Positions 13,401 through 56,792 of a stretch of DNA of 64,000 nt are shown one piece after another (within the stretch, counting starts at the first letter, position 1; every line of letters starts with the position of its first letter). The translations under genes and the position numbers were made by a program. Source of the DNA: Gemmatimonadota bacterium. Lineage in GTDB: Bacteria; Latescibacterota; UBA2968; UBA8231. Below the pieces are notes generated by a model. It was not told the DNA's origin. It saw only the letters and a program-made list of their open reading frames with translations, and did no database searches. The stretch spans positions 124,001 to 188,000 of the forward strand of contig VXML01000080.1 of assembly GCA_009841115.1 (NCBI GenBank), written 5' to 3'.

Positions 13401-13635
13401 GAACTCCGGTAATGCTGCCGTTGAAGAAGTATTCGGCACCATTGACTCGTTCGTCACTTGGGATGTGAGCTTTCTGTGGGACTTGTCCGAGGGCGTCAAT
13501 ATCGCGCTGTCGGGGATGAACCTGCTCGACACGATGCCGCCGCTGGTCAACATTGAGCAGGCGTACGACGGCTTTACGCACGATCCCAAGGGGCGGCGGC
13601 TGAAGCTGGCCTTGTCCTATAAGTTTGGCGGCTGA
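10474..13635 (+). CDS. TonB-dependent receptor with N-terminal carboxypeptidase-regulatory-like domain
   Basis: Signal peptide; carboxypeptidase-regulatory-like fold; plug motif VNLRGLGASRTLVLINSRR...DRVEVLKEGASAIYGSDAVAGVANF; C-terminal barrel strand. Confidence 0.93.
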   Translation: MKFLHRHFLMLVAAALAWAAPAWTQATGTIVVTVVDDDSGQALETALVYIPALDLGGMSDAQGQFTMADVPVGEHKLRAELIGYSSVTATVAVEAGQTATVELRIKPSALLLKELTVTGTAFKESPINLPYAVAVTGRDKMAEQGSPQAVDFFKNLSASHGVIGERSSWYNANQAATLSESIANVNLRGLGASRTLVLINSRRQTYVPARLIGGRFVDVNAIPSIAVDRVEVLKEGASAIYGSDAVAGVANFLTRADFEGFEVSGAHEYIAGAGDSNIGAIWGGKIGAAHAVVSGEWRGRQALPASERDYLLQPWHGGGQRLGWSSLGNPGTFAVGAPAPWTAAIHAPRCEQFGGFRESWTCRFRYQQYENLIEDMSHTRAFAEINGELDNGTEYHLEGLFAQAEIPEWYTTPSYPPFPLTDTSIMEVAPNHPGREAFCADYGAEEGDLYYNECQDGENWYFNGRPFGNSGPGRILGRDSRTLRLAAAANGDLSQDIHFDLGLSYSRTEGNYNLPGVYIERLFLGFRGFGGPDCGVGVEADNTSLAGMRLGPLNGQVAGQGGCQYYNPFGNAIEFADQYGADFANQANPDYRANLANSPELRHWLNQEVDLQSTADLLVADATLSGTWIEDVASYAAGYQFRLLNASGNPNDEGDFTINPCPVVGDDGCSAEDRFGPYAFTNVNRPYDESQTVHRFFAEIPLSLGSRFDTQLAANYEFHDVASSFDPKFGWRYQLVESPTQSVFLRGSVQTTFRTPSLDDVNENPLSTLEWINETGAYQTVDRIGSKDLKPEQAFTYNAGFVLVTEEGFDATFDYWSYDFKDVIGAMPHGAITALYADEANKEALKQFIVCPDGVGTGTCAASELERVQVDIVNWPGVKTSGIDLHLGGNTAAGAGEIALSLDATYTLEYRTKALMFGNLELQEGADAAGYLNFGNPIATSLPKLKGQVSAGYHWEGYRLVSFLNYISSYEDRGSLNSGNAAVEEVFGTIDSFVTWDVSFLWDLSEGVNIALSGMNLLDTMPPLVNIEQAYDGFTHDPKGRRLKLALSYKFGG

Positions 13636-28244: not shown

Positions 28245-30209
28245 TTGCTCCGACAAATACCGGCTGTCTATCGTCGGCGCGTAGTGCGCCGCGACCAGAC
28301 CACGGGCCGGGGTGCTACGGGGCGCGCCCTACTCACCGGCGGCCTCTTGGCGGCTCTTATCGCCATCGGCGTGCCCTATGGGGGCATGGTGATACAAGGG
28401 TCGCGGCTGGGGCTTTCGTCGGCGACGCCCGCGGCGTTTTTTTTGTTGTTCGTGCTGCTGCTGACTGTGCAGGTGGCACTGGGGGCTATGCGGCGGGAGT
28501 GGGCATTTGGCCGCGGCGAGTTGCTGACGATCTTTGCGATGATGGCGGTGGCCACGGCCATTCCCACGCGCGGCGTAGTGGGGCTGCTGCTGCCGATGAT
28601 CACCGGCACCTTCTACTACGCTACTCCAGAAAACCAGTGGGCCGAGTTGATCCATCCCCATTTGGCCGACTGGATGGTCGTCGCGGACATAGAGGCTATC
28701 CAGGGCTTTTACGAGGGCGTGGGGCGCAATGCGCCGATCCCTTGGGATGCTTGGTTGGTGCCCTTGGGGCGTTGGCTGGCGTTCTACGCGGCGTTCTATC
28801 TGGCCTTGATATGCCTGATGAATATCCTGCGCCGCCAGTGGGTAGATAACGAGCGGCTGGCCTATCCTTTAGCGCAAGTGCCGCTGGCTATGATCCAAGG
28901 CGCGGAGGAAAGCAGGCTCGCACCCTTTTTCCGCCAGCGCCTCGTTTGGCTGGGCTTGGCCATCCCCTTTGTCCTCGGCAGTTTAGAGGCCCTGCATCAC
29001 TACTTCCCCGCTATGCCCTCGCCCGTGCTGGATACGCGACTGTCGCTGCTGCGGCAGATCGTGGTCCTGCGCCTCGACGTCAACTTCCTGATGCTTGGCT
29101 TCGCCTATCTCATTGGCGTCCAGCTCTCCTTTAGCCTTTGGGTTTTCTATCTGATCCACGCCCTGCAAGAGGGCTTGTTGGACAGTCTGCATTTGCAGCA
29201 TACCGCCGAAGTGGGGACGTGGTCCGATCCGGGGATGGGACACCAGATGATAGGGGCCTGCGCCGCGCTCGTCGCTTATAGCTTGTGGACGGCCCGCGCC
29301 CATCTAACCGAGGTTGGACGCCGCTTTTTGCGCCCTGGGCAAGACGAAGGGGAAATGGCGTCTTATCGCTTTTCCGTCGTTGGTTTGGTCTTGGGCACGG
29401 CAGGCATGGTGGTGTGGCTGTGGCAGAGTGGGTTGCCGATGTGGATCGCTGCGCTGGTGGTGGTGGTGGCGCTGGGCCTTTTGGTTGCGCTGACGCGCAT
29501 CATCGCCGAAGCCGGTACTCCCACTATTACTTCGGGCATGATTCCCGCTGGATTTACCGTCAGTGCCGTCGGTGTACCGGCTTTGGGTGCGCCGGGTATG
29601 GTAGCGCTGGGCTATACCTTGGTCTGGGTCGGCGAACTGTTGGTTTTTATGACCGCTCCTTTGGCCAATAGTCTGCGTTTGGGCAGTGAATTGGCGGGGG
29701 ATCGCCGCCGGTTGCTTTGGGGTTTGGTCGCGGCCATGCTCATTAGCCTTGTGCTATCGACTTGGTACATGCTGCGCTTGGCCTATACGCACGGAGCCGT
29801 CAACCTACACCAGCAGTACTTTTCCACCTTTGCGGCCGAGCCGTCCAAGTTCGCCGCGCATCAACTACTCCATCCCACTGGCCCGGATGCCATCGGCTGG
29901 CTGTGGACCGGCGGTGGTGCGCTGCTGATGAGTGCGCTGATTGGTGCGCGCAACTACTGGGCTTGGTGGCCGCTACATCCTTTGGGCTTTGCCGCGAGCA
30001 TGGGCTGGGTCATGGACCATATCTGGTTCTCTATTTTTCTCGCTTGGTTCGTCAAGACTTTGGTGCTCCGCTTTGGGGGCGCGGCACTCTACCAAAAGAC
30101 CGTGCCTTTTTTCCTCGGCATAGCTCTCGGCCAGATTGTCACTGCGGGGATCTGGCTCATCGTCGATGGGTTCACCGGGATGGTGGGCAATCGCCTGCCG
30201 GTGTATTAA
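28245..30209 (+). CDS. Polytopic membrane protein, DUF6784/DUF6785-like
   Basis: Many TM segments; YYATPENQWAELIHPHLADWM and RRQWVDNERLAYPLAQVPLAMI; paralogous to 35968-37911(-). Confidence 0.75.
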   Translation: MLRQIPAVYRRRVVRRDQTTGRGATGRALLTGGLLAALIAIGVPYGGMVIQGSRLGLSSATPAAFFLLFVLLLTVQVALGAMRREWAFGRGELLTIFAMMAVATAIPTRGVVGLLLPMITGTFYYATPENQWAELIHPHLADWMVVADIEAIQGFYEGVGRNAPIPWDAWLVPLGRWLAFYAAFYLALICLMNILRRQWVDNERLAYPLAQVPLAMIQGAEESRLAPFFRQRLVWLGLAIPFVLGSLEALHHYFPAMPSPVLDTRLSLLRQIVVLRLDVNFLMLGFAYLIGVQLSFSLWVFYLIHALQEGLLDSLHLQHTAEVGTWSDPGMGHQMIGACAALVAYSLWTARAHLTEVGRRFLRPGQDEGEMASYRFSVVGLVLGTAGMVVWLWQSGLPMWIAALVVVVALGLLVALTRIIAEAGTPTITSGMIPAGFTVSAVGVPALGAPGMVALGYTLVWVGELLVFMTAPLANSLRLGSELAGDRRRLLWGLVAAMLISLVLSTWYMLRLAYTHGAVNLHQQYFSTFAAEPSKFAAHQLLHPTGPDAIGWLWTGGGALLMSALIGARNYWAWWPLHPLGFAASMGWVMDHIWFSIFLAWFVKTLVLRFGGAALYQKTVPFFLGIALGQIVTAGIWLIVDGFTGMVGNRLPVY

Positions 30210-41288: not shown

Positions 41289-41481
41289 CCGTGAGCACTC
41301 GAACTAGAGGTAGTTGTCTTTTGCGGCACTCTTTTTATATATTGTGCTGATATTTAGCAACGATTAGCAACTATTAAGAGCTGTTGAAAGGAGGTAAAGA
41401 GAGGCCGTTTTAGGCATTAGAAGCTCACTTTTCGTTTTTTAGCGAATGTTTAAACCACGAACCCATGAGGTGAATTGCATT

Positions 41482-42435
41482 ATGAAGAAGATTTTGAGCA
41501 TCGCGAGTATTTTGGCTCTAGGCATCATGTTGCAGGCTAGCGCAGTATCGGCTCACGTGCCGATCCCCGGCATCGACTCCGGTACGCTTTTTCAGTGGCC
41601 CGCTGGCCTGGAACCGACCTTGGACGGCGACCTTTCTGAATGGGACATCGTTCCCGAGGATTACTACGTTCCCTTTGACTCGCACTACGAGTACTACCTC
41701 GGCTTGGGCCACGAAAACGACGAGAGCAATTTGTCGTTTCGGGTGGTAGGCTCTTGGAGTGCGGGGACCAACCGCCTCTATCTTATGATGGAGCGCTTCG
41801 ATAATCTCTGGGTCCGCACAGGCTTTGGTCAGACCGCGGCTGGCGACGATAGCTGGGAGATCATGATCGACGCTGACCACGGCGGCGACCGGCACTTTGC
41901 CCTTCCCGACGATTTCGAAGACGACGAAGAGCGCCAGCGCAACCAAGGTCGCTTTGCCCAGAACGCCCATTACGTCTGGCCCGAAATGCCCGACGCCAAC
42001 CGGGCCGTCGGCTGGAAGTGGTTCTTCAACAGTCAATCCACTTGGCACGATAAGCCACCGTGGGGCGATTACGGTTTCCAGCTAGATGGCGAAGTCAACT
42101 CGGGCGAGGCCACGGCGCGCATCGAGGTGATGACGATCGCGTGGGATGACTTCTACTGGATCGGCCCCGACGAGAGCCTAGTCCACACCTTCACCGAGGG
42201 CAATACCATCGGTCTGGGTTGGGTTGTTCACGACATAGACAACACTGCAGAGGACAATGGCGGAGCCAGCGCTGGCGGCTGGGGCATCAACCCCAACATC
42301 CAGATGTGGTTCGACTGCGTCAACTGCTCAGACTTCCTGCTGGCCCCGATCGATCCGCGCGTGGATTTCAGCAGCGTTGAAACCGCGGTAGAGGAAGATA
42401 GCTGGGGACGCATTAAGGCGGCCTATATCCAGTAG
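41482..42435 (+). CDS. Secreted carbohydrate-binding (CBM9-like) protein
   Basis: Signal peptide MKKILSIASILALGIMLQASAVSA; FQWPAGLEPTLDGDLSEWDIVPEDYYV; likely ATG at 41482 inside the 41446 ORF. Confidence 0.65.
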   Translation: MKKILSIASILALGIMLQASAVSAHVPIPGIDSGTLFQWPAGLEPTLDGDLSEWDIVPEDYYVPFDSHYEYYLGLGHENDESNLSFRVVGSWSAGTNRLYLMMERFDNLWVRTGFGQTAAGDDSWEIMIDADHGGDRHFALPDDFEDDEERQRNQGRFAQNAHYVWPEMPDANRAVGWKWFFNSQSTWHDKPPWGDYGFQLDGEVNSGEATARIEVMTIAWDDFYWIGPDESLVHTFTEGNTIGLGWVVHDIDNTAEDNGGASAGGWGINPNIQMWFDCVNCSDFLLAPIDPRVDFSSVETAVEEDSWGRIKAAYIQ

Positions 42436-42476: not shown

Positions 42477-42507
42477 GAAGGGGAGGTGTCTCGTGCATCT
42501 CCCCTTC
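42477..42507. terminator. Hairpin downstream of 41482 gene
   Basis: gaaggggag ... ctccccttc, 9-bp stem, no long T tract. Confidence 0.5.
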
Positions 42508-42549: not shown

Positions 42550-44538
42550 ATGGTGGCATTCAGAGGCTTCTGCGCCGCGCTCTTGTTGGCCGCGAGTAGT
42601 ATCCCGGTCGCGGGATTGACCGTCTATCGGCTAGGTGGTGAGGGTTTACCGCCGCCGCCCGAAGTGGCCAGTGGACAAGCCGATTTAGTCCAATTTAGCT
42701 GGGCCGAACTCGATCCCGACCTACAGGGAGTAAGCGAATCCCTGACGATTGCCTCCGACGCCATTTCCCCGTTGTTCTTCCCTGCGGATGTCAATATCGC
42801 ACCGACGGTTAAGGATCGCGGTGGTTATCTACAGACCCAAGGTTTTCAGGCTTGGGTCGAAACCGATGATATAATTTTGATAAAAGACGGCGATCCCGCG
42901 ACGGCCTATTACGAGGAGAAGGGATCCAATCAGGTGAACGTGGGAGATGACTTGCGGTTCGGCAAAGTTTTACTGTTCGACCTCGGCGGTTTGTTTGCGG
43001 TGGATCGAATCCGCTTTTTCACGCGTGCTGGCAACGAAGCCAATTACATCGAACTCTTCCACATCTGGACCAATACGCTGACGAATGAAGAAGCCGGGAT
43101 CAGCAGCGTGGATCTCTGCACTGCTGGCAGGACGGACAACTGTTTGGGCTTCATCAACAGGGCACACCGCGACATCTACAATCGCAAGAACATGTATTTC
43201 AACGCGCTGTTGGAGGTCAAGGAAAACACCCGCTCGACCGTAGAAGTGGAACTCACCGGCGAGTACATCCGCCGCGTGGTGCTGTTCGTGCCGTCGCAGC
43301 TAACTCGGGACTGGGAGATCGCCGAGTTTGAGATCTTTGCGCCCGGCTATGTGCCCAACGCCTCGTATCTTTCCAACATCCTCGATCTGGGCAAAGAAGT
43401 CTCGCTAGGCGAGTTGCGCTGGTCGGGGACCAAGGACGCGGAGGCCGCGGTCAACATCCGCAGCCGGAGCGGCAGCGATGTCGATCCCAACATATACTGG
43501 CGTCATACCTTTCGGGGCGACGAGCAGGTCAGCTACGACGCTAGGGGCAATCCGCTGACCTTGCGTGCGTACGGGCGGTTGGAAATTTCCGAGCGCGGCA
43601 AGATCACCCGCGACGCGGCAAATTGGGATTTCTGGTCGAAGACCTACGATTTTGGCGACAGTGTTGGGACGCGCTGGTCGGCGACCAAGCCTCGGAGCTT
43701 TGTCCAGTTTGAGTTGGACTTTCAATCGAACATTGCCGCGGGCAGCCGGATGAATTACGTGGAGTTTACTGCGTCTCCGCCGGCGGTCACGACACTGGTG
43801 GGAGAAATCGATCCCTATCAGGTGGAAACGGCCCAAGTAACGCATTTCACTTATGCCATCCGGCCCACCATCGGAGTTGACGACCCGGGATTCGATCATT
43901 TGGAAATCTCAGCCCAGGGTGGGAGGCTAGTGAGTATCGACGGCGTGCGGATCGGGGGTCAAGAGGTAGCTTTTGAGCGAGTTGAAGAAGGGGCTGAGCG
44001 GCTGGTGGTGGGCGTACCGAGGTTAAACGTGGACCGCACCGAAGAGGTGATGGAGGTTATTTTCAGCGCCGAGATTTTTCGCTATGGGGCGATCTTTGCC
44101 GGTCGCGTGTTCGACAGCGAAACTCCACAGGAAATTTGGCAGCCGGTGCAGCCCGGCGACGCCACCGCGCTCAGGGACGGCAACACCCTTTCGGTGCAAG
44201 CCCTTGCGTTAGGCACCCGGGTCCTCGGTGCGCTAGACCTAGCCGGGGGCGTTTTTACGCCCAATGGCGACGGCGTCAACGACGGGTTGGACATTGCCTA
44301 TGATTTGCTCAAACTGGTGGCACCGGCTCCGGTAGTGGTGGAGGTGCGGGACTTGGCCGGCGGGTTGGTGCGCGAGGTTTACAATGGTTTGGATGCGGCT
44401 GGCCGCCACCGGCGGCAGTGGGACGGTTTGGACGAACGTGGCCAGCAGGTGGCTCCCGGTGTTTACATCTGCCGCGTCGAGGTAGAGACTGAGGAGGGAC
44501 GGCGGCAGCGCGTAGGGGTCGTGGCGGTCGCCTATTGA
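42550..44538 (+). CDS. Surface protein paralogue 1 with FlgD-like C-terminal domain
   Basis: Signal peptide; ASYLSNILDLGKEVSLGELRW; C-term GVFTPNGDGVNDGLDIAYDLLKL...VEVRDLAGGLVREVYNG...WDGLDERGQQVAPGVYICRVEV. Confidence 0.75.
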   Translation: MVAFRGFCAALLLAASSIPVAGLTVYRLGGEGLPPPPEVASGQADLVQFSWAELDPDLQGVSESLTIASDAISPLFFPADVNIAPTVKDRGGYLQTQGFQAWVETDDIILIKDGDPATAYYEEKGSNQVNVGDDLRFGKVLLFDLGGLFAVDRIRFFTRAGNEANYIELFHIWTNTLTNEEAGISSVDLCTAGRTDNCLGFINRAHRDIYNRKNMYFNALLEVKENTRSTVEVELTGEYIRRVVLFVPSQLTRDWEIAEFEIFAPGYVPNASYLSNILDLGKEVSLGELRWSGTKDAEAAVNIRSRSGSDVDPNIYWRHTFRGDEQVSYDARGNPLTLRAYGRLEISERGKITRDAANWDFWSKTYDFGDSVGTRWSATKPRSFVQFELDFQSNIAAGSRMNYVEFTASPPAVTTLVGEIDPYQVETAQVTHFTYAIRPTIGVDDPGFDHLEISAQGGRLVSIDGVRIGGQEVAFERVEEGAERLVVGVPRLNVDRTEEVMEVIFSAEIFRYGAIFAGRVFDSETPQEIWQPVQPGDATALRDGNTLSVQALALGTRVLGALDLAGGVFTPNGDGVNDGLDIAYDLLKLVAPAPVVVEVRDLAGGLVREVYNGLDAAGRHRRQWDGLDERGQQVAPGVYICRVEVETEEGRRQRVGVVAVAY

Positions 44539-44564
44539 AATCGGCTAGTTCAGGAGATTGAGCT

Positions 44565-47132
44565 ATGGTCAGCAGGAAGTGCACACTGGCATTGAGTTTG
44601 GGCCTCGGGTTGTGGGGGTTGGTTGGGGCGCAGAATCACGCCTTGCGGTCCGACCACGTCGTCGTAAACAGCCAACGTCATTGGAATAATTGGGCTTTCG
44701 TCGAGGGGACGCTGGATGTCTCCGCTAGCGGGGAGGTCGTTCCGGCTTTCGTGCCCAAGGATCACAACGCCGTGACGGACATTGTCCAACACCTGCAGCG
44801 CCTCGCCGATAACGCGACTATCCTCGACGCGATCGAAGCCGGGACCAACAAGGCGGCGGTCGCCAACCTCTTCGACGGCGACGAAACGACCTATTGGGAG
44901 CCAGACCCCGACAGCCCATTGCGGGACTGGTGGATCCAGGTCGATATGGGACGATTGATCAATGCCACGCGGGTCGGGTTGCAATTCGTGCCCGAGGGGC
45001 AGGGCGATCCCTTTTTGCAGTTTGCGGTGCTGACGGCCGACAACGCCGATCAAGGCAACAAGATCGCGGGCAAGGTGCCCATGCACTTGGTGTACCGGAC
45101 GCCAAGCGACAACAAAAACCAGCGCGAGTTCGAGTTCGACCTCAACCGAGGGGAACTGATCAACCCCACTCCCGGCGTGGATTTTGCGGGCGATATGGTG
45201 CGCTTCGTGCAAGTCGTGATCACCGAAAGCGATGGCGCACGCGCCGTCGAAGTGTCGGCGGAAGAATACGAGGCGTTGGCCAGCCGCGACAAGGGAGACG
45301 TGGTCTTCTATAAGCAAGTGGGGGAGGGGGAAGTGGAGGTCGAGGCGGCGATCTACGAGGCGATTGACTCGCAACTGCGCGGCCCGGTGCGCTATTACCG
45401 GCGGGAGCGGCCGCGCTTGGCCGAGTTGGCCGTCTATGAGTTGGGCAAGAACATTTCGCAGGGCATGGTCTTAGACCGCAACGGCAGTGCCGAGAGTTCC
45501 CACGATGGGTCTGTGGGCAACTTAGTAGATGGGGAAGGCACCTATCTGACCTTTAATCTCAAAGCCTTTCAGACGGGGAACGTGGAATTCGGCGAGCGCT
45601 TTCTGGAGTTCGACCTAGGGGCTTCCTACTGGCTCGATACTGTGCAGCTATGGTACAGCCTCAGCGTTGCTGGCGGCCGGCTGGCTGGAGCCAGTTTTCA
45701 CCGCTACGCAATCCAGACTTCGGACGGCACTCCCGCCCCAGGTGGCGGTCGGCTGTGGAGGGTGCCCGCACAGGTCCGCGGCTTGGGCACGGCGTATGAA
45801 GTCAATACCTTTGAGCCGACGCCGGCCCGCTTTGTGCGCATAGCCTATCCTTTTTCCAGTAGCGAGTCGGGGCGGGAGGGGAATAAAGCGCGCGTCCGAG
45901 AAGTGCAGATCTACGGCGAAGGGCACCATCCCGAGGTGGAACTGGAGTCGGGGTTGATCCCATTGCAGGGGGCCAAGAATCTCGTGTCGATCGAATGGGA
46001 GGCGGATACGCCCCCGGGTACGTCTGTGCAAATCCAGACCCGTACTGGCAATGAGGTCTCCGAAGCGTACCGCTACTACGACAGCGGCGGTGCGGAAGTC
46101 TCGGAGGGCAAATACGCGAAGTTGGGCTTTTTCAAAAAAGGCCGAATCGACACTCTGCAGGTGGCCGGGTCCGACTGGAGCAATTGGAGTGCGCCCTACG
46201 CGCATTCCGGCGACCCGATTGCCTCGCCCAGCCCGCGCCAATATCTGACCTTGCGCGCTCGGTTGACGACCACAGAACCCATGCACGCTGCCAGCCTGCA
46301 CTCCATCCGTTTGAACTTTAATCCTCCGGTGGCGAAACAACTGCAAGGAGAACTGGATATTGGAATCTTTGAGCGCTTGGGCGCGCCGCAGGAGGTGTCA
46401 CTATTCGTCAAGCCGACCTTCGCGTCGCAGGACTTGGGCTTTGACGAGATTTTGGTGCGCACGCCGCCAGATATGTCGCTCGAATTCGGCGCGCTGCGCT
46501 TGGGCAGCTCGGCGCAGTGGGAAAGCGGCCAAGCCGAAGAGCTGGCCGATGTGCAAGTGATGGAGACTCGCTCCGACTCGCTCTGGTTGCGCCTCGACCG
46601 GCTGATAAATCAGGGCGGACAGGTCGATCTAGTTGAGGTGCAGTTTACGACGGCGCTGTTTTCCCCCGGGGTAGTGCTCCAAGCGGCGCTGGGCAATTCG
46701 TCGTTGGCAAACTCGTGGCAACAGGTTGACCCGGCGGACGTGACCGAACTGGCCCAGAGTCAGGGACTGCAAATCCTCGCTTCGGTGCAAGACAACAAGG
46801 TTCTCGGCGATCTAGGCATCCAGCCAGAGGTAGTAACGCCCAACGGCGATGGGGTCAACGACGCGCTAACCATTGATTTTACCGTGCGTCGGTTGAGTGG
46901 CGAGCGCCCGGTCAAAGTGCGGATCTACGACTTAGGCGGACGACTGGTGCGCCGCCTCGATACCCAGAAGCCGCTAGTGGCCGGAAAATACGTACTCGAC
47001 TGGGCGGCCGATGACGAGCAGGGACAACAGGTACCGCCTGGAATTTACATTTTGCGCATTGACATTGATGCGGATTCGGATCGCGACGTGCGGCAAACGG
47101 GAGTTCAGCGCCTGCTGCATGTGGCGTATTGA
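44565..47132 (+). CDS. Surface protein paralogue 2 with discoidin-like N-region and FlgD-like C-terminus
   Basis: LFDGDETTYWEPDPDSPLRDWWIQVDMGRLINATRVGLQF; VTPNGDGVNDALTIDFTVRRL...YDLGGRLVRRLDTQK...VPPGIYILRIDID. Confidence 0.75.
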   Translation: MVSRKCTLALSLGLGLWGLVGAQNHALRSDHVVVNSQRHWNNWAFVEGTLDVSASGEVVPAFVPKDHNAVTDIVQHLQRLADNATILDAIEAGTNKAAVANLFDGDETTYWEPDPDSPLRDWWIQVDMGRLINATRVGLQFVPEGQGDPFLQFAVLTADNADQGNKIAGKVPMHLVYRTPSDNKNQREFEFDLNRGELINPTPGVDFAGDMVRFVQVVITESDGARAVEVSAEEYEALASRDKGDVVFYKQVGEGEVEVEAAIYEAIDSQLRGPVRYYRRERPRLAELAVYELGKNISQGMVLDRNGSAESSHDGSVGNLVDGEGTYLTFNLKAFQTGNVEFGERFLEFDLGASYWLDTVQLWYSLSVAGGRLAGASFHRYAIQTSDGTPAPGGGRLWRVPAQVRGLGTAYEVNTFEPTPARFVRIAYPFSSSESGREGNKARVREVQIYGEGHHPEVELESGLIPLQGAKNLVSIEWEADTPPGTSVQIQTRTGNEVSEAYRYYDSGGAEVSEGKYAKLGFFKKGRIDTLQVAGSDWSNWSAPYAHSGDPIASPSPRQYLTLRARLTTTEPMHAASLHSIRLNFNPPVAKQLQGELDIGIFERLGAPQEVSLFVKPTFASQDLGFDEILVRTPPDMSLEFGALRLGSSAQWESGQAEELADVQVMETRSDSLWLRLDRLINQGGQVDLVEVQFTTALFSPGVVLQAALGNSSLANSWQQVDPADVTELAQSQGLQILASVQDNKVLGDLGIQPEVVTPNGDGVNDALTIDFTVRRLSGERPVKVRIYDLGGRLVRRLDTQKPLVAGKYVLDWAADDEQGQQVPPGIYILRIDIDADSDRDVRQTGVQRLLHVAY

Positions 47133-47157
47133 CCAACCTATAGGAAGAGAGTCGGCT

Positions 47158-49356
47158 GTGTTGTATCCGCGCGCGAAGGCACTGGTGCTGGTATTGTTAG
47201 CGGTGCAGAATCTAGGGGCGGAGCGCCGCACGATTGTCATGGGTGGCGAGGACGGTTTGACATGGGAAAGCGGTGGCGGCGCGATCGCGGCTTTGATACA
47301 AACCGGTCCGACTGAGGTCGAGGTTAACAACACCCCGGGCAATGTGCTCGAATTTGACGCCGATGGCCGGGTGGGCTGGCTGTCGCCGCAACGGGCGGAT
47401 GAGACTGTAAATATTGCTTTGGGCCTCCTCGACCGCGGTGGTCGCCTCGGCGCGCCGACTATTTTGTCGCAGGTCATAAAAGACCAGCTAATTTTTATGA
47501 TCGACGACGATCCCACGACCGCCTTTGAGCGCAAGACGGCTCGCGGGGGGAGCCAGGTCAACTCGCTCGGAGTAATCATGGATTTCGATCTCGGCGCGCG
47601 GTTCGGCGTCGAGCGAATCCAGTTTTTCCCCCGCAACGCACACCCCGATTTTCTCGCCCCAGATTTCCCGTTCCAAAACGATTTTCTGCGCGGCTTTGAA
47701 CTGCTGCTCAACGACGGCAGCGAAGAAACACAGGTAGCCAATCAGCCGGTGCTGACCACTGTCAAACTGGAGACGGAAAACGAAGAGCCGGTCGTCGAAC
47801 TGACCATTCCGCCGCAATACGTCCGCTATATCCGCCTGAAATCGCAGACCACCGTGGGGTTTGAGGTTGCGGAATTCCGCGTGTTTGGGTCCGGTTTTGT
47901 GCCACGGGCCGACTACCTTTCCAACATTTTCGATTTTGGCGAGGAATTGGCGCTGTGGGGTCGCATTCGCTGGGAGGAGGAGCACTTCGGGTCCGAGCGC
48001 CTGTCGCGCTTGCTGATCAGTTCGCGTAGCGGCTGGGACGACACGCCGTTGGAATTTACTCGCCTGCATTCAGGCAGTGGGGAAGAGGTGCCGTGGCGGG
48101 AAGGCGCGGTCGCGACTACGGCGACAGGCGATGCGGTTGACTTAGACGCGATTGACGATGTTGAAGAAGCCCTCGACCTGTTCAACGCCCTGCCTATTGA
48201 CGAGCGCAATCAGGTGGCGTTGACGCAGGACGAGTACGACGATTTGAGAAGTTCGGATAAGGGTGATGTGCGCGACGACTTAGTCGCTTGGAGCCGCTGG
48301 TCGCCGCCGTACAAGCTAACTGCGGGTACTGTAAACGCCGCAAACATCGGCGATGATGAGTTGGGCGTGCCCATTCTTTCGCCCGGCCCGCGCCGCTATT
48401 TCCAGTTGAAGGCCGAATTCGACAGCCAAGACTTGAAAGCCGCCCGCGCAATGGGTGCGCTAGCCTTTACGGTATCCAATCCGCCGCTGACGGAGCGGAT
48501 TATCAGTGAGGTCGTCCCGCGCCAAGTTGAACTGGGCGTGCCGGTGTCGTTTACGTATGCCGTTTTGCCGACCAAGATGCGCCAGGGCGTGGATTTGGGG
48601 TTTGATGTGTTCGAGATCGCCACGCCCGTGCGCTCTGAAGAGGTTGAGACTATCGAGGTGGTGCACGCCGACGGCCAGGTGCAAACGGCGGATTTCACGG
48701 GCGTTGACTTGACTAATCTGCCGGTTCAGGATGACAGCGGCCTCTTTGCCGTGGAATCGGTGACTGAGCGACATTTGCGGGTGCGCTTTCCCGCAATCAC
48801 GGAAAGCGATTTGGCTGCGGGCCGAGCGGCAGTACTCAAAATCCGCTTCAAGTGCCGCGTGCTGAGGTTTGGCACGACTTTTACCGGCACGGCTTGGAAC
48901 AGCACTACCGACGACCTCGGCCAGCGAGTTATCGGCGGCAATGCGGCCGATTTAGGGGCGGCGGACGACGATTTAATACCTATCGGGGCTGCCGACCCGA
49001 ATGACCTAGCGGTAAGAGTGCCGCTGGCGGGGAGCCGCCTCATGATTAACGTCGCAGCCCAACCGCGCATCTTCAGTCCCAACGGAGATGGGGTTAATGA
49101 TGAGACGCGGATACACTGCGATCTGGTGCGGTTGGTCGATGCTGCGCCGCTTACCGTGCACGTGTTCGATCTAGCTGGACACCGCGTTCGCACGCTCTTT
49201 GCGGGCGAGCAAGGCGGCGGGAGTTTTTCCGCGCAGTGGGACGGCACGAATGCTGCCGGACAACAGATGCCTCCGGGTATCTACCTCTTCCGCGTCGATT
49301 TGTCCACCGATGCTAAGGGAGAAGCGGTCGTGGGTATTGTCGAGATGGTGTATTAG
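47158..49356 (+). CDS. Surface protein paralogue 3 with FlgD-like C-terminus
   Basis: GTG 47158 after aggaagagag; DYLSNIFDFGEELALWGRIRW; FSPNGDGVNDETRIHCDLVRL...FDLAGHRVRTLFAGEQGGG...MPPGIYLFRVDL. Confidence 0.75.
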   Translation: MLYPRAKALVLVLLAVQNLGAERRTIVMGGEDGLTWESGGGAIAALIQTGPTEVEVNNTPGNVLEFDADGRVGWLSPQRADETVNIALGLLDRGGRLGAPTILSQVIKDQLIFMIDDDPTTAFERKTARGGSQVNSLGVIMDFDLGARFGVERIQFFPRNAHPDFLAPDFPFQNDFLRGFELLLNDGSEETQVANQPVLTTVKLETENEEPVVELTIPPQYVRYIRLKSQTTVGFEVAEFRVFGSGFVPRADYLSNIFDFGEELALWGRIRWEEEHFGSERLSRLLISSRSGWDDTPLEFTRLHSGSGEEVPWREGAVATTATGDAVDLDAIDDVEEALDLFNALPIDERNQVALTQDEYDDLRSSDKGDVRDDLVAWSRWSPPYKLTAGTVNAANIGDDELGVPILSPGPRRYFQLKAEFDSQDLKAARAMGALAFTVSNPPLTERIISEVVPRQVELGVPVSFTYAVLPTKMRQGVDLGFDVFEIATPVRSEEVETIEVVHADGQVQTADFTGVDLTNLPVQDDSGLFAVESVTERHLRVRFPAITESDLAAGRAAVLKIRFKCRVLRFGTTFTGTAWNSTTDDLGQRVIGGNAADLGAADDDLIPIGAADPNDLAVRVPLAGSRLMINVAAQPRIFSPNGDGVNDETRIHCDLVRLVDAAPLTVHVFDLAGHRVRTLFAGEQGGGSFSAQWDGTNAAGQQMPPGIYLFRVDLSTDAKGEAVVGIVEMVY

Positions 49357-49416
49357 TGGATGCTTCGGCTGCGCTCAGCATGACTAGGAAGATTTGTTTT
49401 CTAATGGAGGGATTTA

Positions 49417-52209
49417 ATGGGCAGAACTAGGGGGATACCTGCGTGGCTGGTCCTCTTGGCACTGGTATTGCCAGCGACCGAGGCAATCGGCCAGTCGCTG
49501 GACCGTCGTTTCGGGACCCAGCGTGGTGCCCAACTCACTTTTGAACCGCGCGGTCCGGGCGTCCTCTTCGATGCCCTCGACCCGGCGCTCAAGAAATGGT
49601 ACGTGCCGCAAGAGCTATACGTCGATTACGGCTTTCGTCAGTGGGAGTACTCGAATTACGCCAGAGACTTATACCAGCGCTACGTCAGCACCAACCGCCA
49701 GGGCGGGCCGTTTTACGACCTGTACGGAAATTATCAGACCTGGGGCTGGCTGGTTTTCGACTGGAACCAGACGCAGCCGGGCCAATTTGGTTCGTCGATA
49801 TACAAAGATCCTAGGTTCAATTCGTGGTTCAATGCCGTTACTGTCTCTGCCGATTCACGCGATCAGTATTACTTGGCGATAACCATTGGCGAGCGCATCC
49901 GCACTGCCCTGACCCCACTGACCTTTTCGAAGCCGCGTTTCAACGGCATCCAGATGGACTTTGCCGCGGACAAATACGAGGCCACGCTGTTGTTTTCCCG
50001 CGCCAGCGAGGCGATCCTCGGTACCACCCCCGCACTCCAGCCCAGCACCTCGACCAATGCGACCAATATGATGGGGGGACGGGCCACGGCGCAGGTGGGA
50101 GATTTTGTCAAGGTCGGCGCAACTATGGTCAACGCCCACCACTCGCAGACGCTGGCCGAGGCGTTTGAACGCAATCCGTTCATCGGCACCTTGGGGGCTG
50201 GGCAAGGCAGCGATCCGATTCGGGTCCTCGCTGTGGTGCTGAGCGACGATTCCCCGGAAGACGGCCAAGGCGGCGCGGCGCTGTTTGCCCACGACATCAT
50301 CATTACGGCCGAGGATTTCGACACCAAGAAGCGCACGAAATACCGCTTGCGGGAGGTGGTAGCCGATCCAACCAAATGGCCGGTGATTACCGGCGGCTTT
50401 CCCCGGGAGGGTTTTTTGGCTGCCGACGGCGAGGAACAGATCGTCATTAACTACGACTTTACCGACTTGGCGTATATTGGGCCGCGACCGACGGAGATCA
50501 TCGATATCCAGTTCGACTTAGTGGTGGCCAACGACTACAAGATCCAGGTGTGGTCGGATCGCCAGATTGGACGCGGCAGCTTGCCCAGCCCGCCGCTTAC
50601 AGGTTTGGACTTGGCGCAAGCGGGTGCCGTGTTGTTCGATGTCCGCAGCGCCGCAGGCAATGTGACGGACAATTCAAACCAGCAGCGCGTGGTCTTTGAC
50701 TACGGACTGCCATCGGCCAACATGGTGTTCGGATTTACCATGGAAGTGCTACAGTTGATGGGCTTTGATGCCTATGCTGAGTACGATATTAATCGCGACT
50801 ACACCCAGTACCCCAACCTCACGCTCGCCAACGCAGACCGCAACCTGCGCACCCACGCCCGCGACGCCGCGGCTTGGATGGTCAACGTTTCCAAGCAGGC
50901 CTATCCATTCTTCTTGTTCGGCGAGGCCTTCAGCATGGACCCCGATTACTCGACGACGGCGTTTATCGTCGATTCGGGAGGCAACATCTACTACGACGAC
51001 ACGCGCACCTCAATGTATGAGTTTGTCGATGACAATGACGACCAAGACCGCACGCCCGATTGGAGCCGTTGGGGTCAGGGCGGCCCCGACGCAATCGTCT
51101 TCCCCGGTTGGGACGAAAACAACGACTTCGTCTCGGACTTCAACCAGAACGACAACATCTCGCTGAGCAATCGCATCCCGGATTACGAGGAACCGTTTTT
51201 TCGCTACAACGTCGATCGGCCAGAATTCCTCTTTGGCATTGACCTCAACAACAACAACTGGATTGATCGGTTTGAAAACGACGACTTGCCAGACTATCCC
51301 TACCGCAGGAATCACCGGGGCTACAATGTCTATGTCGGCCAACACCTGACGCCGGAGGCGCGATTGACGGTGGGACGACTGCGCGAAGACGAGCTATCCT
51401 CCAACCGCCGGAGCCACGCGACCTACGGCGTTTTCACGTATGACCGCGATCACCCACAATGGGGCCACTTGCGGTTTTTCAATTCGCTGAAAAAGGTCGC
51501 CGACAATATCCCCGACGCTCGCCGCGAGCCGACGCTATACCTGCAGACGCTCTCGCTGGCTCTTGTCGAGGACATCTTGCCGGCCAGAGACACTTGGGTC
51601 AATGACAGCTACGTGCAGTTCGATTACGAACCGGTCAAAAAGCTGAATGTGATCAACAAATTCAAATACAGCCTCTTCAGCCAGCGCGGTGAGGCGTTCA
51701 AAAGCGGCGATGCACCCATCCTCAATGAACGCACGCAGTTTGTGGGTTTGATCAATAAGGCGGATTACACCCGCAAAATTGGCCAATTTGTGCTGCAACC
51801 CAAGGTGAAAAGCGAATACCTCAACCAGACGGCCTTTTTGCAGGCCGATCCCGATCGCAAGGAGTGGATGGGGATTGGCATTTTGCAGGCGCGGCTGCCG
51901 GTGTTGAACAACTCCTTCCTCGAAAGCGGGGTGGAGTATTCGGTTTTCCGCGAACTGGTCTTGGACGAAGATTCCTTGCTGGACGATGGCCCGACCCAAG
52001 ACACGGGTGACTTCCGCAACTTGGTTTTGGCCGTGCAGTGGACGACCCTCGGACACTACCTCGGCTACAAGCTTACCACTCAGTTTGGCGTTAGCTATAC
52101 CAAGCGGTGGGACGAGGCCGTGGTGTTGGGTGATGATGGCCTTGTGAAGCAGAGTGAGAGCCGCTCCTTTGGCACGAGCTTTATCTCGGTGTACGCCGGT
52201 GTAGAATGA
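49417..52209 (+). CDS. Large putative outer-membrane (barrel-like) protein, paralogue 1
   Basis: Signal peptide; WDENNDFVSDFNQND...DLNNNNWIDRFENDDLPDYPYRRNHRGYNVYVG; amphipathic beta-rich C-terminus. Confidence 0.7.
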   Translation: MGRTRGIPAWLVLLALVLPATEAIGQSLDRRFGTQRGAQLTFEPRGPGVLFDALDPALKKWYVPQELYVDYGFRQWEYSNYARDLYQRYVSTNRQGGPFYDLYGNYQTWGWLVFDWNQTQPGQFGSSIYKDPRFNSWFNAVTVSADSRDQYYLAITIGERIRTALTPLTFSKPRFNGIQMDFAADKYEATLLFSRASEAILGTTPALQPSTSTNATNMMGGRATAQVGDFVKVGATMVNAHHSQTLAEAFERNPFIGTLGAGQGSDPIRVLAVVLSDDSPEDGQGGAALFAHDIIITAEDFDTKKRTKYRLREVVADPTKWPVITGGFPREGFLAADGEEQIVINYDFTDLAYIGPRPTEIIDIQFDLVVANDYKIQVWSDRQIGRGSLPSPPLTGLDLAQAGAVLFDVRSAAGNVTDNSNQQRVVFDYGLPSANMVFGFTMEVLQLMGFDAYAEYDINRDYTQYPNLTLANADRNLRTHARDAAAWMVNVSKQAYPFFLFGEAFSMDPDYSTTAFIVDSGGNIYYDDTRTSMYEFVDDNDDQDRTPDWSRWGQGGPDAIVFPGWDENNDFVSDFNQNDNISLSNRIPDYEEPFFRYNVDRPEFLFGIDLNNNNWIDRFENDDLPDYPYRRNHRGYNVYVGQHLTPEARLTVGRLREDELSSNRRSHATYGVFTYDRDHPQWGHLRFFNSLKKVADNIPDARREPTLYLQTLSLALVEDILPARDTWVNDSYVQFDYEPVKKLNVINKFKYSLFSQRGEAFKSGDAPILNERTQFVGLINKADYTRKIGQFVLQPKVKSEYLNQTAFLQADPDRKEWMGIGILQARLPVLNNSFLESGVEYSVFRELVLDEDSLLDDGPTQDTGDFRNLVLAVQWTTLGHYLGYKLTTQFGVSYTKRWDEAVVLGDDGLVKQSESRSFGTSFISVYAGVE

Positions 52210-55025
52210 CGCGACGCAATCTAACAATGTGGGCGGCGGTTTGCCTGCTGACCGGACTAGTGCCAGCGAATGCCCAGCCCGATTACGGCAACCGCTTGGG
52301 GACCAACGAGGAGGACCGGGTTTCCTATTACGCCTCCGGCCCACTCATGCAGCAGGCGGCGTTCGTCCCCGCGTTGAAGCGCTGGTACATGCCGCAGGAA
52401 ATCGTCTCTGAATACCGCTGGCAGTGGGAGTACACCAATTACGCCAGAGATCCCTACCGGCGTTACTTTTCTCCTGGGCAGGAAGGCGACTATTTCTACG
52501 ACCTGTACGGGCGCTATCTGACCAAGGGTTGGTTGGTTTACGACTGGCGGCAGCGACAGCCGACCAGCTCGGGAGGCTCGGGCCTGCTCAAACCGTCCGG
52601 GCGCTACGACTCGTGGTTCAGCAACCTGCTCATTGCCACCGATACCAAGGGCCAGCACTATTTGGGGGTGACTATCGGCGACCTGATCAATACCACGCTG
52701 ACGCCGATGACGTTCCGCAAAACTAGGTTCAACGGGGTGCAATTTGACTATGCTGCCGACCGCTTGGCCGCTACGGTGTTGATGTCGCGGATTAGTCTGC
52801 CGGTGCATCAGATCGCCCCGGGCGTGCGCGTCCCCATCGTCACCGAGAACTTTACCAACCTGCTCGGCCTCCGAGGTGAGTGGAAGGTCCTCGACGCCGT
52901 GCACTTGGGCGCGACCTTTGTCAACGCCCACAACGACCGATCGCAATCCGACCGCGGCGGCAATCCCTTCAAAGGCAAGCTGACCAATGGTCAACTGGAA
53001 AATCGCATCAACTGGATCATCGTCCGCATAACGGACGATTCGCCCGAGGACGGCGCGGGCGGCCCTACGGTTTTCGACCAAGATATTGAAGTGCATACCC
53101 AAATCGGTGGTCGCGATACCGTGCTGGTTGGCAGTCAGCTTGGTTTTCTGCCGCAGGTAGAGGGCGGTACCACGCGCAATGGCTTTCCCGTTGCCGAAGG
53201 GGCTGGTAGCGAGGGCGAGATCACCTATCGGTACAACTTCTCTTCGGAAGACCCGGCGGTGATGGCGCTGGAAGACATTATCGACGATGCCGACTTAGTC
53301 AACAACATTACTGCGGTGAAGTTCCGTTTCCTGCTCAACAACGACTATCGGATTGATGTCACCTCGGATGTCCAGACCGACAACGAACCTTTGGGTGCCC
53401 AATCCAAGTTCCTGAACGTGGTGCGAGCGGATGGCAATGTCCAAGACAACTCCAATCAGCGGTGGGTTGTCTTCGACTACGGTCTGCCGACAGCGACCCA
53501 AGTTTTCGGATTCAGTTTTGAGGTCAGCGATTGGGCGGGCTTTCGGATGTACGGCGAGTACAATGTCAACCACCAGTTCCGGCAGTACCCCAATATCGCT
53601 CGGCAGACGCACCACAGCGCGTCTGGCGTGTTGGGGGATGAGTCGGCCACGGGTTGGATGGTCAACGTCGCCAGAGAATTCTACCCCTTCTTCTTGTTCG
53701 GCGAGGCGTTTAGCATGGACGCCGAGTACAACACCACGTCGTTCCTCGTCGATCAGGGCGGACGGATCAATTACAGCGATGACGAAGAGGCGCGGTCGGA
53801 GTTTCTCTACGACTTGGTCGATGACAACGACGACAACGACATCCGCCTCGACCAGCGGCGCGACAAGGAGGGGCTGGCCGACGGAGCGGTGTTTCCCGGT
53901 CTCGACGAAAACAACGACTTCATTTCCGATTTCAATCAAAACAACACGCCAGTGCGCCCCAATTTCATGCCCGACTACGAAGAGCAATTCCTGCGCCACT
54001 ACGTCGATCGGCCGGAATTCGTCTTCGCCATCGACTTGAACAACAATGGTTGGGGCGAGCGCTTTGAAAACGACGACGAGCCGGATTATCCCTACAAGCG
54101 CGACCGGCGCGGGTACAACGTCTACTTAGGGGCGTGGCTGACGCCGGAGCTGAAATGGATGGCGGGGCAGGAGCAAGTGCAGCGCTTATCTACCGGCGCA
54201 AAGAATCTGACTCGCTACGCCCTGTTGGCCTACGAGCGCAATTTCCCGACGGTGGGAAATGTTGCTTTTTACGACATGTTCAAGCTAGTGCAGGACGACA
54301 TTGCCGACGATGTGGTCCAGTGGGTGACGGCGCGGCCCGAGCTGGGTAGGCCGCTGGATTCGCCGGGGTCGATGCAGCCGGTCATGGATCCGCTGGCGAT
54401 GCGCGACGCCGTCGTCAATCGGCTGTGGGCTGGTTTCACCGGCAAGACCTACAAGGGCATCAATAGCGAGGGCAAGTTCATCCACGAATTCATTCGGCAG
54501 CGCGACGCCGATGCCCGCGACCGAGCTGGCCGCAAGATCGCCCGCAATACGCGGCGACTGGGGCTGATCAACCGCATAGATTACCAATTTTCGCTGGGCC
54601 GGCTGACGGTACAACCGCGCTTCAAGCACGAACTCTTCATGGACGACACGCCCTACAATATCGACCGCCTAACCAGCGCCTCGACGGCCGACCGCCAAGA
54701 CTGGAGCGGGATCTCCTCGCTCTTACTGCGGCGTTCCTTTTTGAACCACGTGTCGCTACAATTGGGCGTCGAGCACCTGATCTTCCGCGATTTTATCCAA
54801 GATGAGACGGCCACCGCTGGCTTGCGCGCCGGCGATACGACTGGGGATTTCAACGAGACCTCGCTCGCCGTGCAGTTTTCCATCGACAAGCCGTATCTGG
54901 GCTATACCCTGCAAACCCTGATGGGGATAAGGGTGAGCAGACGCTACTTAGAGCGCTTTGAACAGCCGAGCGCTCGGGAGACGGGTGCCCTTTCCTTCGT
55001 GACGGTATATGGCAGCATCCGCTAG
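52206..55025 (+). CDS. Large putative outer-membrane (barrel-like) protein, paralogue 2
   Basis: ATGA overlap with upstream stop; LDENNDFISDFNQNN...DLNNNGWGERFENDDEPDYPYKRDRRGYNVYLG matches paralogue 1. Confidence 0.7.
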   Translation: MTRRNLTMWAAVCLLTGLVPANAQPDYGNRLGTNEEDRVSYYASGPLMQQAAFVPALKRWYMPQEIVSEYRWQWEYTNYARDPYRRYFSPGQEGDYFYDLYGRYLTKGWLVYDWRQRQPTSSGGSGLLKPSGRYDSWFSNLLIATDTKGQHYLGVTIGDLINTTLTPMTFRKTRFNGVQFDYAADRLAATVLMSRISLPVHQIAPGVRVPIVTENFTNLLGLRGEWKVLDAVHLGATFVNAHNDRSQSDRGGNPFKGKLTNGQLENRINWIIVRITDDSPEDGAGGPTVFDQDIEVHTQIGGRDTVLVGSQLGFLPQVEGGTTRNGFPVAEGAGSEGEITYRYNFSSEDPAVMALEDIIDDADLVNNITAVKFRFLLNNDYRIDVTSDVQTDNEPLGAQSKFLNVVRADGNVQDNSNQRWVVFDYGLPTATQVFGFSFEVSDWAGFRMYGEYNVNHQFRQYPNIARQTHHSASGVLGDESATGWMVNVAREFYPFFLFGEAFSMDAEYNTTSFLVDQGGRINYSDDEEARSEFLYDLVDDNDDNDIRLDQRRDKEGLADGAVFPGLDENNDFISDFNQNNTPVRPNFMPDYEEQFLRHYVDRPEFVFAIDLNNNGWGERFENDDEPDYPYKRDRRGYNVYLGAWLTPELKWMAGQEQVQRLSTGAKNLTRYALLAYERNFPTVGNVAFYDMFKLVQDDIADDVVQWVTARPELGRPLDSPGSMQPVMDPLAMRDAVVNRLWAGFTGKTYKGINSEGKFIHEFIRQRDADARDRAGRKIARNTRRLGLINRIDYQFSLGRLTVQPRFKHELFMDDTPYNIDRLTSASTADRQDWSGISSLLLRRSFLNHVSLQLGVEHLIFRDFIQDETATAGLRAGDTTGDFNETSLAVQFSIDKPYLGYTLQTLMGIRVSRRYLERFEQPSARETGALSFVTVYGSIR

Positions 55026-55085
55026 CGCCTGCTGACCGTCGGGTTTGATCCATTCCACCTAAAAAATTGCGAGTGTACTGAATCT

Positions 55086-56792
55086 ATGAAAGCGTACCTA
55101 TCCTTGGTTTGTAGTGGGATTGTCTTGGCGTTTATGGGTTGTGCAAAAGATGCCGAGGAACTGGAAGACCCCGTTTTGGCCGAAGTGGGAGACCGCCGGA
55201 TAACGGCTTCCCAATTGATCGACTTTGAACAGCGCTTGCCGGCGCAGCTAAAGACGAAAAAATCTGGCTTAGACGGCTACCGCGACTACTTACAGACGAT
55301 CATCGACAAGGAGATCTTCCTTCAAGAAGCGATCAAAAGGGGACTCGACGAGGTGCCAGAGGTGGCGCAGAAGCTACAGCGGGAAAAAGCCGAACGGGTG
55401 TTGAGCCTGTTGTTCGAGCGCGAATTCCTCGCCAAGGTCAATGTCGATGAGCAGGAGTTGCGGGCGGCCTACGAGGCCGCGGACAAGGAGCGCGAAGTCA
55501 AGCTGCGCTTGATCATCGTTGACACGCAGGCAGAAGCCGAGGAGATCGGGCAAAGCCTCGCCGATGGGAGGGATTTCGCCGAACTGGCACACAGCCGATC
55601 GCAGCACAAATCGACGGTACCGCAAGGTGGAGAACTGGACGGCTACTTGACCCCCAAGCGCATCCCGATCTACCTACAAGAATACATAAACGCGCTTGAG
55701 GTTGGCGAGTACTCTGAGCCGGTCCGCCTGCCCAATGGCCAGTACGGAATCTATCAAGTCATGCACGCACGGCCCGTGAGTTTTGCCACTGCGAGCAACG
55801 AGCTGGAGGCCAAGCTGAGAGAGGAAAAGACGACCGAACTGATAGAGGCGTTCTTGGCGCAACTGCGGACCGACATCGACTTGCAGGCCAACCCCGAGAC
55901 CTTGCATCAGTTACAGCAATGGGTTGCGGCGGGACGTAGAGAGTACACCGAGGTAGAACGCGTAGCGGTGCTCTTTCAATTCCGCGACGGCAGTATCACG
56001 GTGGGCGATTTTTGGGATTATGCGGAAGAGCTGAAGATGGGCTTTTCAGGTGACATTGCCGAGTCGGTGCGTTGGTTTGCCGAGGACGTGCTGTTGCCCC
56101 GCACCTTGTTCCTGCATGTGGCCCATGAAAGGGGGATTGATCGCGAAGAGCAGATTGTGCGCTGGTATGAGCGTCGCAAAGACGCGCTGTTGCTGTTGGC
56201 ACTTAGGCAGACGGCGGTCAAGGACCAGGTCGAGATCGAGCCGGAGGCGGTCAGAAAATTATACGACGAGCGGCCCGAGTTATTCACGGCACCGGAGGAA
56301 GTCACGCTGCAGGAGATCATGGTGCAAACCCGGGAAGATGCCGTGGAGATCAAGGCGAGAATTGAGGCAGGTGAGGATATGGGGGCACTCGCCGACGAAT
56401 ACACCTTGCGAACGGCGGGCAAGGGCGCGCAGGGTACGTTCCACATCCATGCCTTTGAACAAGCCTTTTATCCAGAATTGATCGACGTCGTGCGCAGTGT
56501 CGAGGTCGGCAAGTTGTACGGTCCGCTAGCGGTGACGGCACAGGCCGCCCAAGTGGTCGGCCCGGAGGCCATGCCTCGAGGCGGCGAGTACTATTCGGTG
56601 TTCAAGGTGCTGAAGTCGAATTTCGGCAGCGCTCCCGAGCCTTTTGACACTGCGGTGAAGCGGGCGCGGGCGCTGTTGAAACGCGCCGAAGAGAGCCGCT
56701 TGGCAGATGCGTTTTTGATGGGGCTACGGCGGGACTACGAAGATAGGGTTGTCGTATATGAAGACCGCCTCGAAGCGGTCTTGCTCCAGTAG
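55086..56792 (+). CDS. PpiC/parvulin-type peptidylprolyl isomerase lipoprotein (SurA/PrsA-like)
   Basis: Lipobox-like AFMGC; EVKLRLIIVDTQAEAEEIGQSLADGRDFAELAHSRSQH...GGELDGYL parvulin block; second block EVTLQEIMVQTREDAVEIKARIEAGEDMGALADEYTLR. Confidence 0.85.
   Translation: MKAYLSLVCSGIVLAFMGCAKDAEELEDPVLAEVGDRRITASQLIDFEQRLPAQLKTKKSGLDGYRDYLQTIIDKEIFLQEAIKRGLDEVPEVAQKLQREKAERVLSLLFEREFLAKVNVDEQELRAAYEAADKEREVKLRLIIVDTQAEAEEIGQSLADGRDFAELAHSRSQHKSTVPQGGELDGYLTPKRIPIYLQEYINALEVGEYSEPVRLPNGQYGIYQVMHARPVSFATASNELEAKLREEKTTELIEAFLAQLRTDIDLQANPETLHQLQQWVAAGRREYTEVERVAVLFQFRDGSITVGDFWDYAEELKMGFSGDIAESVRWFAEDVLLPRTLFLHVAHERGIDREEQIVRWYERRKDALLLLALRQTAVKDQVEIEPEAVRKLYDERPELFTAPEEVTLQEIMVQTREDAVEIKARIEAGEDMGALADEYTLRTAGKGAQGTFHIHAFEQAFYPELIDVVRSVEVGKLYGPLAVTAQAAQVVGPEAMPRGGEYYSVFKVLKSNFGSAPEPFDTAVKRARALLKRAEESRLADAFLMGLRRDYEDRVVVYEDRLEAVLLQ

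Follow-up and report, generated by a model that had tools for sequence, protein, structure and literature searches.

What does a compact set of genes for surface proteins, large outer-membrane barrels and a folding factor do, and is it a system of its own? The question is raised by a six-gene cluster in the window, i.e. the whole stretch of 64,000 nucleotides analysed here, which belongs to a 6.16-Mb Latescibacterota metagenome assembly (94.6% complete, 7.6% contamination), derived from an uncultured, probably sponge-associated bacterium. The cluster is undescribed in Pfam, NCBIfam and the open-licence papers searched, and matters for this very reason.

Gene calling relied on a simple ORF rule. 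All six ORFs were confirmed on the + strand, separated by gaps of 26–60 bp except for one ATGA overlap at 52206–52209, between the two barrel genes: the close packing on one strand, anticipated in the original prediction, was thus found. The six genes had been described as a "3+2+1" set, comprising three surface proteins (F1), two barrels (F2) and one lipoprotein (F4). The genes are real, but the conserved unit starts one gene earlier, with a tagged protein here called F3 (Table 1). For F1c, the GTG start at 47161 is preferred, because its orthologues are about 730 aa long.

Table 1. Features of the gene cluster, in window coordinates
Feature	Position	Strand	Description or basis
F3	41446..42435 (likely start 41482, MKKILSIASILALGIMLQASAVSAH)	+	secreted CBM9-like protein, opens the conserved unit
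C-terminal tag of F3, TAVEEDSWGRIKAAYIQ	42382..42432 (VExxSWGx[IV]K core 42388–42417)	+	pattern match
13-bp stem-loop between F3 and F1a	42477..42507	+	hairpin scan
F1a	42550..44538 (start 42493 or 42550)	+	type-B-like C-terminal domain ~44251–44517
F1b	44565..47132	+	F5/8 type C (discoidin); C-terminal domain ~46824–47078
F1c	47161..49356 (ORF open from 47011)	+	discoidin/CBM32-like and Ig-like; C-terminal domain ~49063–49317
F2a	49417..52209	+	~24-strand outer-membrane barrel (predicted), unclassified family, 930 aa
Outer loop of F2a (residues 508–632), rich in D/N and resembling calcium motifs	50938..51312	+	entropy; DSSP loop lengths
F2b	52206..55025	+	second barrel of the pair, 939 aa
F4	55086..56792	+	PpiC-type (parvulin) lipoprotein

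Conservation of the neighbourhood across genomes had been proposed as a check, and gene order is indeed kept in relatives, so that the refuting condition set originally, an order kept in no relative, did not materialise. The full order, F3-F1-F1-F1-F2-F2-F4, was found in L073–L076, L078, L079, L082–L084, L114 and L115, on at least ten related contigs. Considering the genome under study together with related loci, 173 of 178 barrels are accompanied, no more than four genes away, by an F1 gene on the same strand. Gene order is far above chance expectation, because it recurs on independent contigs and because F1 so regularly accompanies the barrels. An F1 gene lies directly 5' of F2 in 36 out of 50 cases in the genome and in 78 out of 128 related ones. 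Contigs containing related loci are mostly labelled as Latescibacterota; some carry other labels, mainly Gemmatimonadetes, possibly as a consequence of mis-naming or mis-binning.

The three surface proteins were expected to end in FlgD-like domains, and matches to FlgD_ig or CHU_C exceed the Pfam cut-offs in all of them: F1a (FlgD_ig 2.4e-9, CHU_C 4.6e-6), F1b (CHU_C 1.8e-9, along with F5_F8_type_C at 9.9e-10) and F1c (CHU_C 8.2e-9). By virtue of CHU_C, 3 out of 3 proteins are recognized as carrying a C-terminal domain like those of type B substrates of the type IX secretion system (T9SS), while their TIGR04131 and TIGR04183 scores are below the NCBI cut-offs. The F5/8 type C fold was recognized by sequence in F1b and by predicted fold in F1c, whose AF2 model (pLDDT 92.3, pTM 0.83) contains a domain that Foldseek matches to CBM32 modules binding chitosan and to lectinolysin's lectin domain (TMt 0.66–0.78), as well as Ig-like parts. 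Judging from these domains and models, F1 proteins appear to be lectin-like, putative sugar binders.

The two large proteins predicted to be paralogous and to reside in the outer membrane share 43% identity, and the AlphaFold model of F2a, built on an alignment of 49 family members (pLDDT 78.8, pTM 0.78), is a large beta-barrel featuring about 24 membrane strands, linked by short turns at one end and by long loops at the opposite end. Searches of F2a and F2b against Pfam and NCBIfam gave no family match, and a PDB sequence search with F2 returned nothing. By Foldseek, the best PDB matches of F2a are MtrB (1.6e-8), SlpA and LptD, large outer-membrane barrels all aligned with low TM-scores. The presence of SlpA at ranks 2–4, together with weak SlpA_C matches in 2 of the 49 F2 members (best E 1.3e-4), brings to mind a structural surface layer, where F2 would anchor an S-layer-like coat of F1, much as Deinococcus SlpA anchors the envelope. 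We regard this as unlikely: the similarity is weak and most likely reflects the geometry of large barrels, the SLH and coiled-coil parts of SlpA are not found in F2, and about 50 divergent paralogues would be unexpected for a single coat. Unlike SlpA, moreover, F2 is multicopy and has lectin-like partners.

In barrels of this kind the C-terminal end of the last strand is, by convention, periplasmic; if so oriented, the long loops of F2a would be outside. They include two large outer inserts, at residues ~245–430 and ~508–632. The latter is the best-conserved part of the whole F2 family, with an entropy of 0.92–1.55 bits in its core (~541–630) vs about 2.1 elsewhere, and contains motifs resembling calcium-binding ones: DDNDDQDRTPD, DENNDFVSDFNQND and DLNNNNWIDRFENDD. 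Part of the loop is modelled at low confidence, so that we infer, rather than observe, its shape and its putative calcium binding.

In a tree of the F2 proteins of the genome, eight tandem pairs resolve into two clades: one comprises all the first members (support 0.999), the other the second members together with one further gene (support 1.0). The branching order is almost identical in the two clades, which mirror each other, indicating that the F2a-F2b pair arose once and was then duplicated as a unit. This pattern suggests that F2a and F2b work together. On a related contig a single ORF of 1839 aa (L087:10171-15690) fuses both barrels; as an assembly error may be responsible, this ORF was left out of the evidence.

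The last gene of the cluster was predicted to encode a PpiC-type lipoprotein. F4 does contain parvulin PPIase domains (Rotamase_2, 3.8e-16 in Pfam), and its lipobox cysteine, Cys19, is near-invariant in 20 homologues. It resembles the SurA, PrsA and PpiD types of parvulin in its domains and chaperone-like layout, but differs in being a lipoprotein present in 21 copies near barrel loci of the same genome.

At the opposite end of the unit, F3 belongs to a family of about 21 members in the genome, about 25% identical overall. A CBM9_1 match is found in 6 of the 21, and the family profile matches xylanase CBM9 at 6.8e-5. The extreme C-terminus is a nearly invariant tag, T[AS]VExxSWGxIK. At the DNA level the tag pattern is matched 38 times in the genome, vs none for a reversed control; the peptide is preserved despite freely varying codons, which rules out a DNA repeat. 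The same tag is carried by unrelated secreted proteins (e.g. in L064, L043 and L045), and several tagged genes lie far from any F2 locus. It further recurs in families of the phylum that are only distantly related, on several occasions adjoining F1 and F2. No paper describing the peptide was found in the open-licence literature. VExxSWGx[IV]K is a candidate sorting signal. Tandem arrays of tagged, beta-propeller-like proteins of about 315 aa (F13) were also observed, in L019, L162 and L169 (C52:53-60 kb, C77).

Perfect stems 10 bp long or longer are found 3' of 83% of the tagged genes, and after just 3–9% of F1, F2 and F4 genes. A T-rich stretch comes next to about half of the tagged-gene hairpins, on their downstream side, and the orthologues in L073 and L074 feature paired, compensatory changes in the stem. 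The hairpin may be read as a device for partial termination or 3' protection, which would raise F3 above the rest of the unit.

In its own genome the cluster exists in roughly 40 copies that arose by duplication, and about 50 full-length relatives of F2a are found there. The neighbourhoods of barrel loci contain 50 F2 genes (49 distinct), 89 F1 and 21 F4 genes; CHU_C-type C-terminal domains number at least 148 in the genome, and about 7% of its sequence is accounted for by genes of the F1 type and by F2, according to an estimate based on gene counts and lengths. Most of the other barrel loci contain a single F2. Neither this amplification, about 50-fold, nor the seventh, tagged CBM9-like gene and the hairpin following it, had been noticed originally. 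Of the "surface/secretion system" then proposed, what stands is a conserved, co-inherited outer-surface gene set; it is one of many paralogous copies, not a single system. F1 genes also form tandem clusters with no barrel nearby, in L193, L194 and L196, coding for "orphan" surface proteins.

It had also been suggested that T9SS components be sought elsewhere in the genome. SprA is present, as it is in 29 out of 30 genomes, and PorV and PorU are encoded by adjacent genes; T9SS machinery, as represented by these three components, is encoded in the genome. SprA occurs whether or not F1 and F2 are present. PF11751 (PorP/SprF) was not found in the genome by a search whose control was likewise silent. 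No papers on Latescibacterota possessing a T9SS were found in the open-licence literature. F2 is not a diverged SprA, the latter being a separate protein of about 2130 aa encoded elsewhere.

Among 64 Latescibacterota genomes compared, F2 is present in 39, which are precisely those that also carry F1. The tag was found in 36 of the 39 F2-positive genomes and in none of the 25 F2-negative ones; the three F2-positive genomes lacking it belong to one family and carry divergent F2. Some genomes of the F2-negative set are near-complete (95–99%) and contain SprA. Four F2-negative genomes showed just 3–7 weak CHU_C matches each, none above the cut-off according to the listed scores, and two of these four (G020 and G023) contain SprA. 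Fisher's tests, which ignore phylogeny, gave 8e-15 and 2.5e-18, the latter for the co-occurrence of F1 and F2; by family, the distributions of F1, F2 and tag agree in nine out of ten families, implying few independent events. Distances among F1 and among F2 are correlated (rho 0.31, 0 out of 2000 permutations), which we take as evidence of co-duplication only, since shared history explains the correlation.

The co-occurrence of tag and F2, the size of the barrels and the dedicated PPIase might point to an export machine, with F2 as the secretion pore for F1 or for the tagged proteins. This reading, already contained in the original prediction, is very improbable: the genes for the pore, sortase and shuttle of the T9SS lie outside the cluster, which is therefore not itself the export machine. 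A T9SS with a pore of its own suits the C-terminal domains of F1, and tagged genes are in several instances distant from F2 loci.

The reading that we favour, and to which we give about an even chance, is that of an amplified display module, in which lectin-like F1 proteins, exported by T9SS, dock on a cognate pair of F2 barrels. F1 would cross the inner membrane by means of its signal peptide, and would be exported by T9SS through the type-B-like C-terminal domain; once outside, it would dock on F2a and F2b, probably at the D/N-rich outer loop. F4 may aid the periplasmic folding of both F1 and F2, and F3, whose leading cistron the hairpin separates from the rest, would be produced in larger amounts. 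The dozens of copies could then constitute a repertoire of glycan-binding surface complexes, used for attachment or capture. The export route, the docking, for which there is an analogy, the roles of loop and tag and the ligands are what we infer, while gene set and order, domains, predicted barrel fold, paired duplication, co-occurrence and the presence of T9SS genes are documented; the type-B-like C-terminal domains, numbering at least 148 here and represented just by weak matches in four F2-negative genomes, the T9SS genes, the co-occurrence and adjacency of F1 and F2, the paired duplication and the lectin-like folds argue in favour.

The analogy is with the pairs of surface protein and barrel known as SprB-SprF in F. 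johnsoniae and PG1035-PorP in P. gingivalis. Type B substrates of F. johnsoniae depend on a cognate PorP/SprF barrel, often encoded directly downstream, and SprF binds SprB (PMC12618676, PMC9143113). Shared features are a type-B-like C-terminal domain on the surface protein, a dedicated barrel gene directly downstream, the presence of several paralogous pairs per genome, and SprA. F2, however, is larger and not homologous to PorP/SprF: it has no family match, PF11751 being matched by none of the 49 members, and about 24 strands in the model vs the 14 of the FadL type. F2 is also paired in the present subfamily, reaches about 50 copies, and belongs to a module that adds a parvulin lipoprotein and a tagged CBM9 protein, in a different phylum, Latescibacterota. 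The difference in barrel family counts against the display module, as do the sub-threshold TIGR04131/TIGR04183 scores of F1, the F1 clusters without a nearby F2, and ExbB/ExbD genes at two F2 loci, suggestive of energised transport. If the display module is correct, the logic of "surface protein plus cognate barrel" of T9SS would extend to another barrel family and another phylum, with a hint of the ways in which Latescibacterota might deal with glycans or hosts, and with a candidate C-terminal sorting signal that is directly testable.

The main rival is a SusCD-like importer: F1 and F3 would capture glycans or other polymers, F2 would be an energised import barrel, and the paralogues would serve different substrates. 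The lectin and CBM domains of F1 and F3, the Sus-like heavy amplification, ExbB and ExbD at two F2 loci and an SBP_bac_5 solute-binding gene (Pfam) directly upstream of the cluster in the window are all consistent with it, and in Bacteroidota, too, the gene of a glycan-binding surface protein lies beside that of a large barrel. We hold this importer to be possible, yet clearly less probable than display. Plug (PF07715) or TonB-receptor matches were found in none of the 49 F2, and none of the 26 Plug matches of the genome coincides with an F2, and we reject F2 as being itself a TonB receptor or SusC. The F2 modules also lack a SusD family match and catabolic enzymes, coexist with separate TonB receptors and bear a T9SS-type export signal. 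Conventional TonB receptors occur in similar numbers whether or not F2 is present (14–28 in the larger F2-rich genomes vs 15–36 in F2-lacking ones), so that F2 does not replace them: the counts show no trade-off. Glycoside hydrolases, lyases and sulfatases are not enriched among neighbours; as they are absent from the commonest family matches of 87 neighbours, a classical PUL is rejected. The barrel loci with ExbB/ExbD are L159:3577-8436, containing two ExbD genes, and L192:3378-8023; each includes a TPR protein of about 1090 aa, and this set is a possible motor for the system. DUF4159 proteins occur in the regions of both loci (L021, L192).

Returning to display, the tag invites an extension of it, which we put forward tentatively and consider rather doubtful: a paired-barrel surface-assembly system would handle not only its own lectins but, with F2 acting also as receptor for VExxSWGxIK, the tagged proteins as well, i.e. 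two classes of address label.

A few observations concern the surroundings of the cluster and the assembly. A TonB-dependent receptor of the ordinary, plug-containing kind is encoded at window positions 10474–13635, separate from the cluster. L009 and L041 represent one region, containing a BsuBI/PstI-type restriction gene and a barrel, on two contigs, probably because of assembly redundancy or strain mixture. Membrane proteins of the DUF6785/DUF6784 type (F8) are encoded in the window at 28245–30209 and at nine other loci near barrels, for a total of 10 copies in the regions examined.
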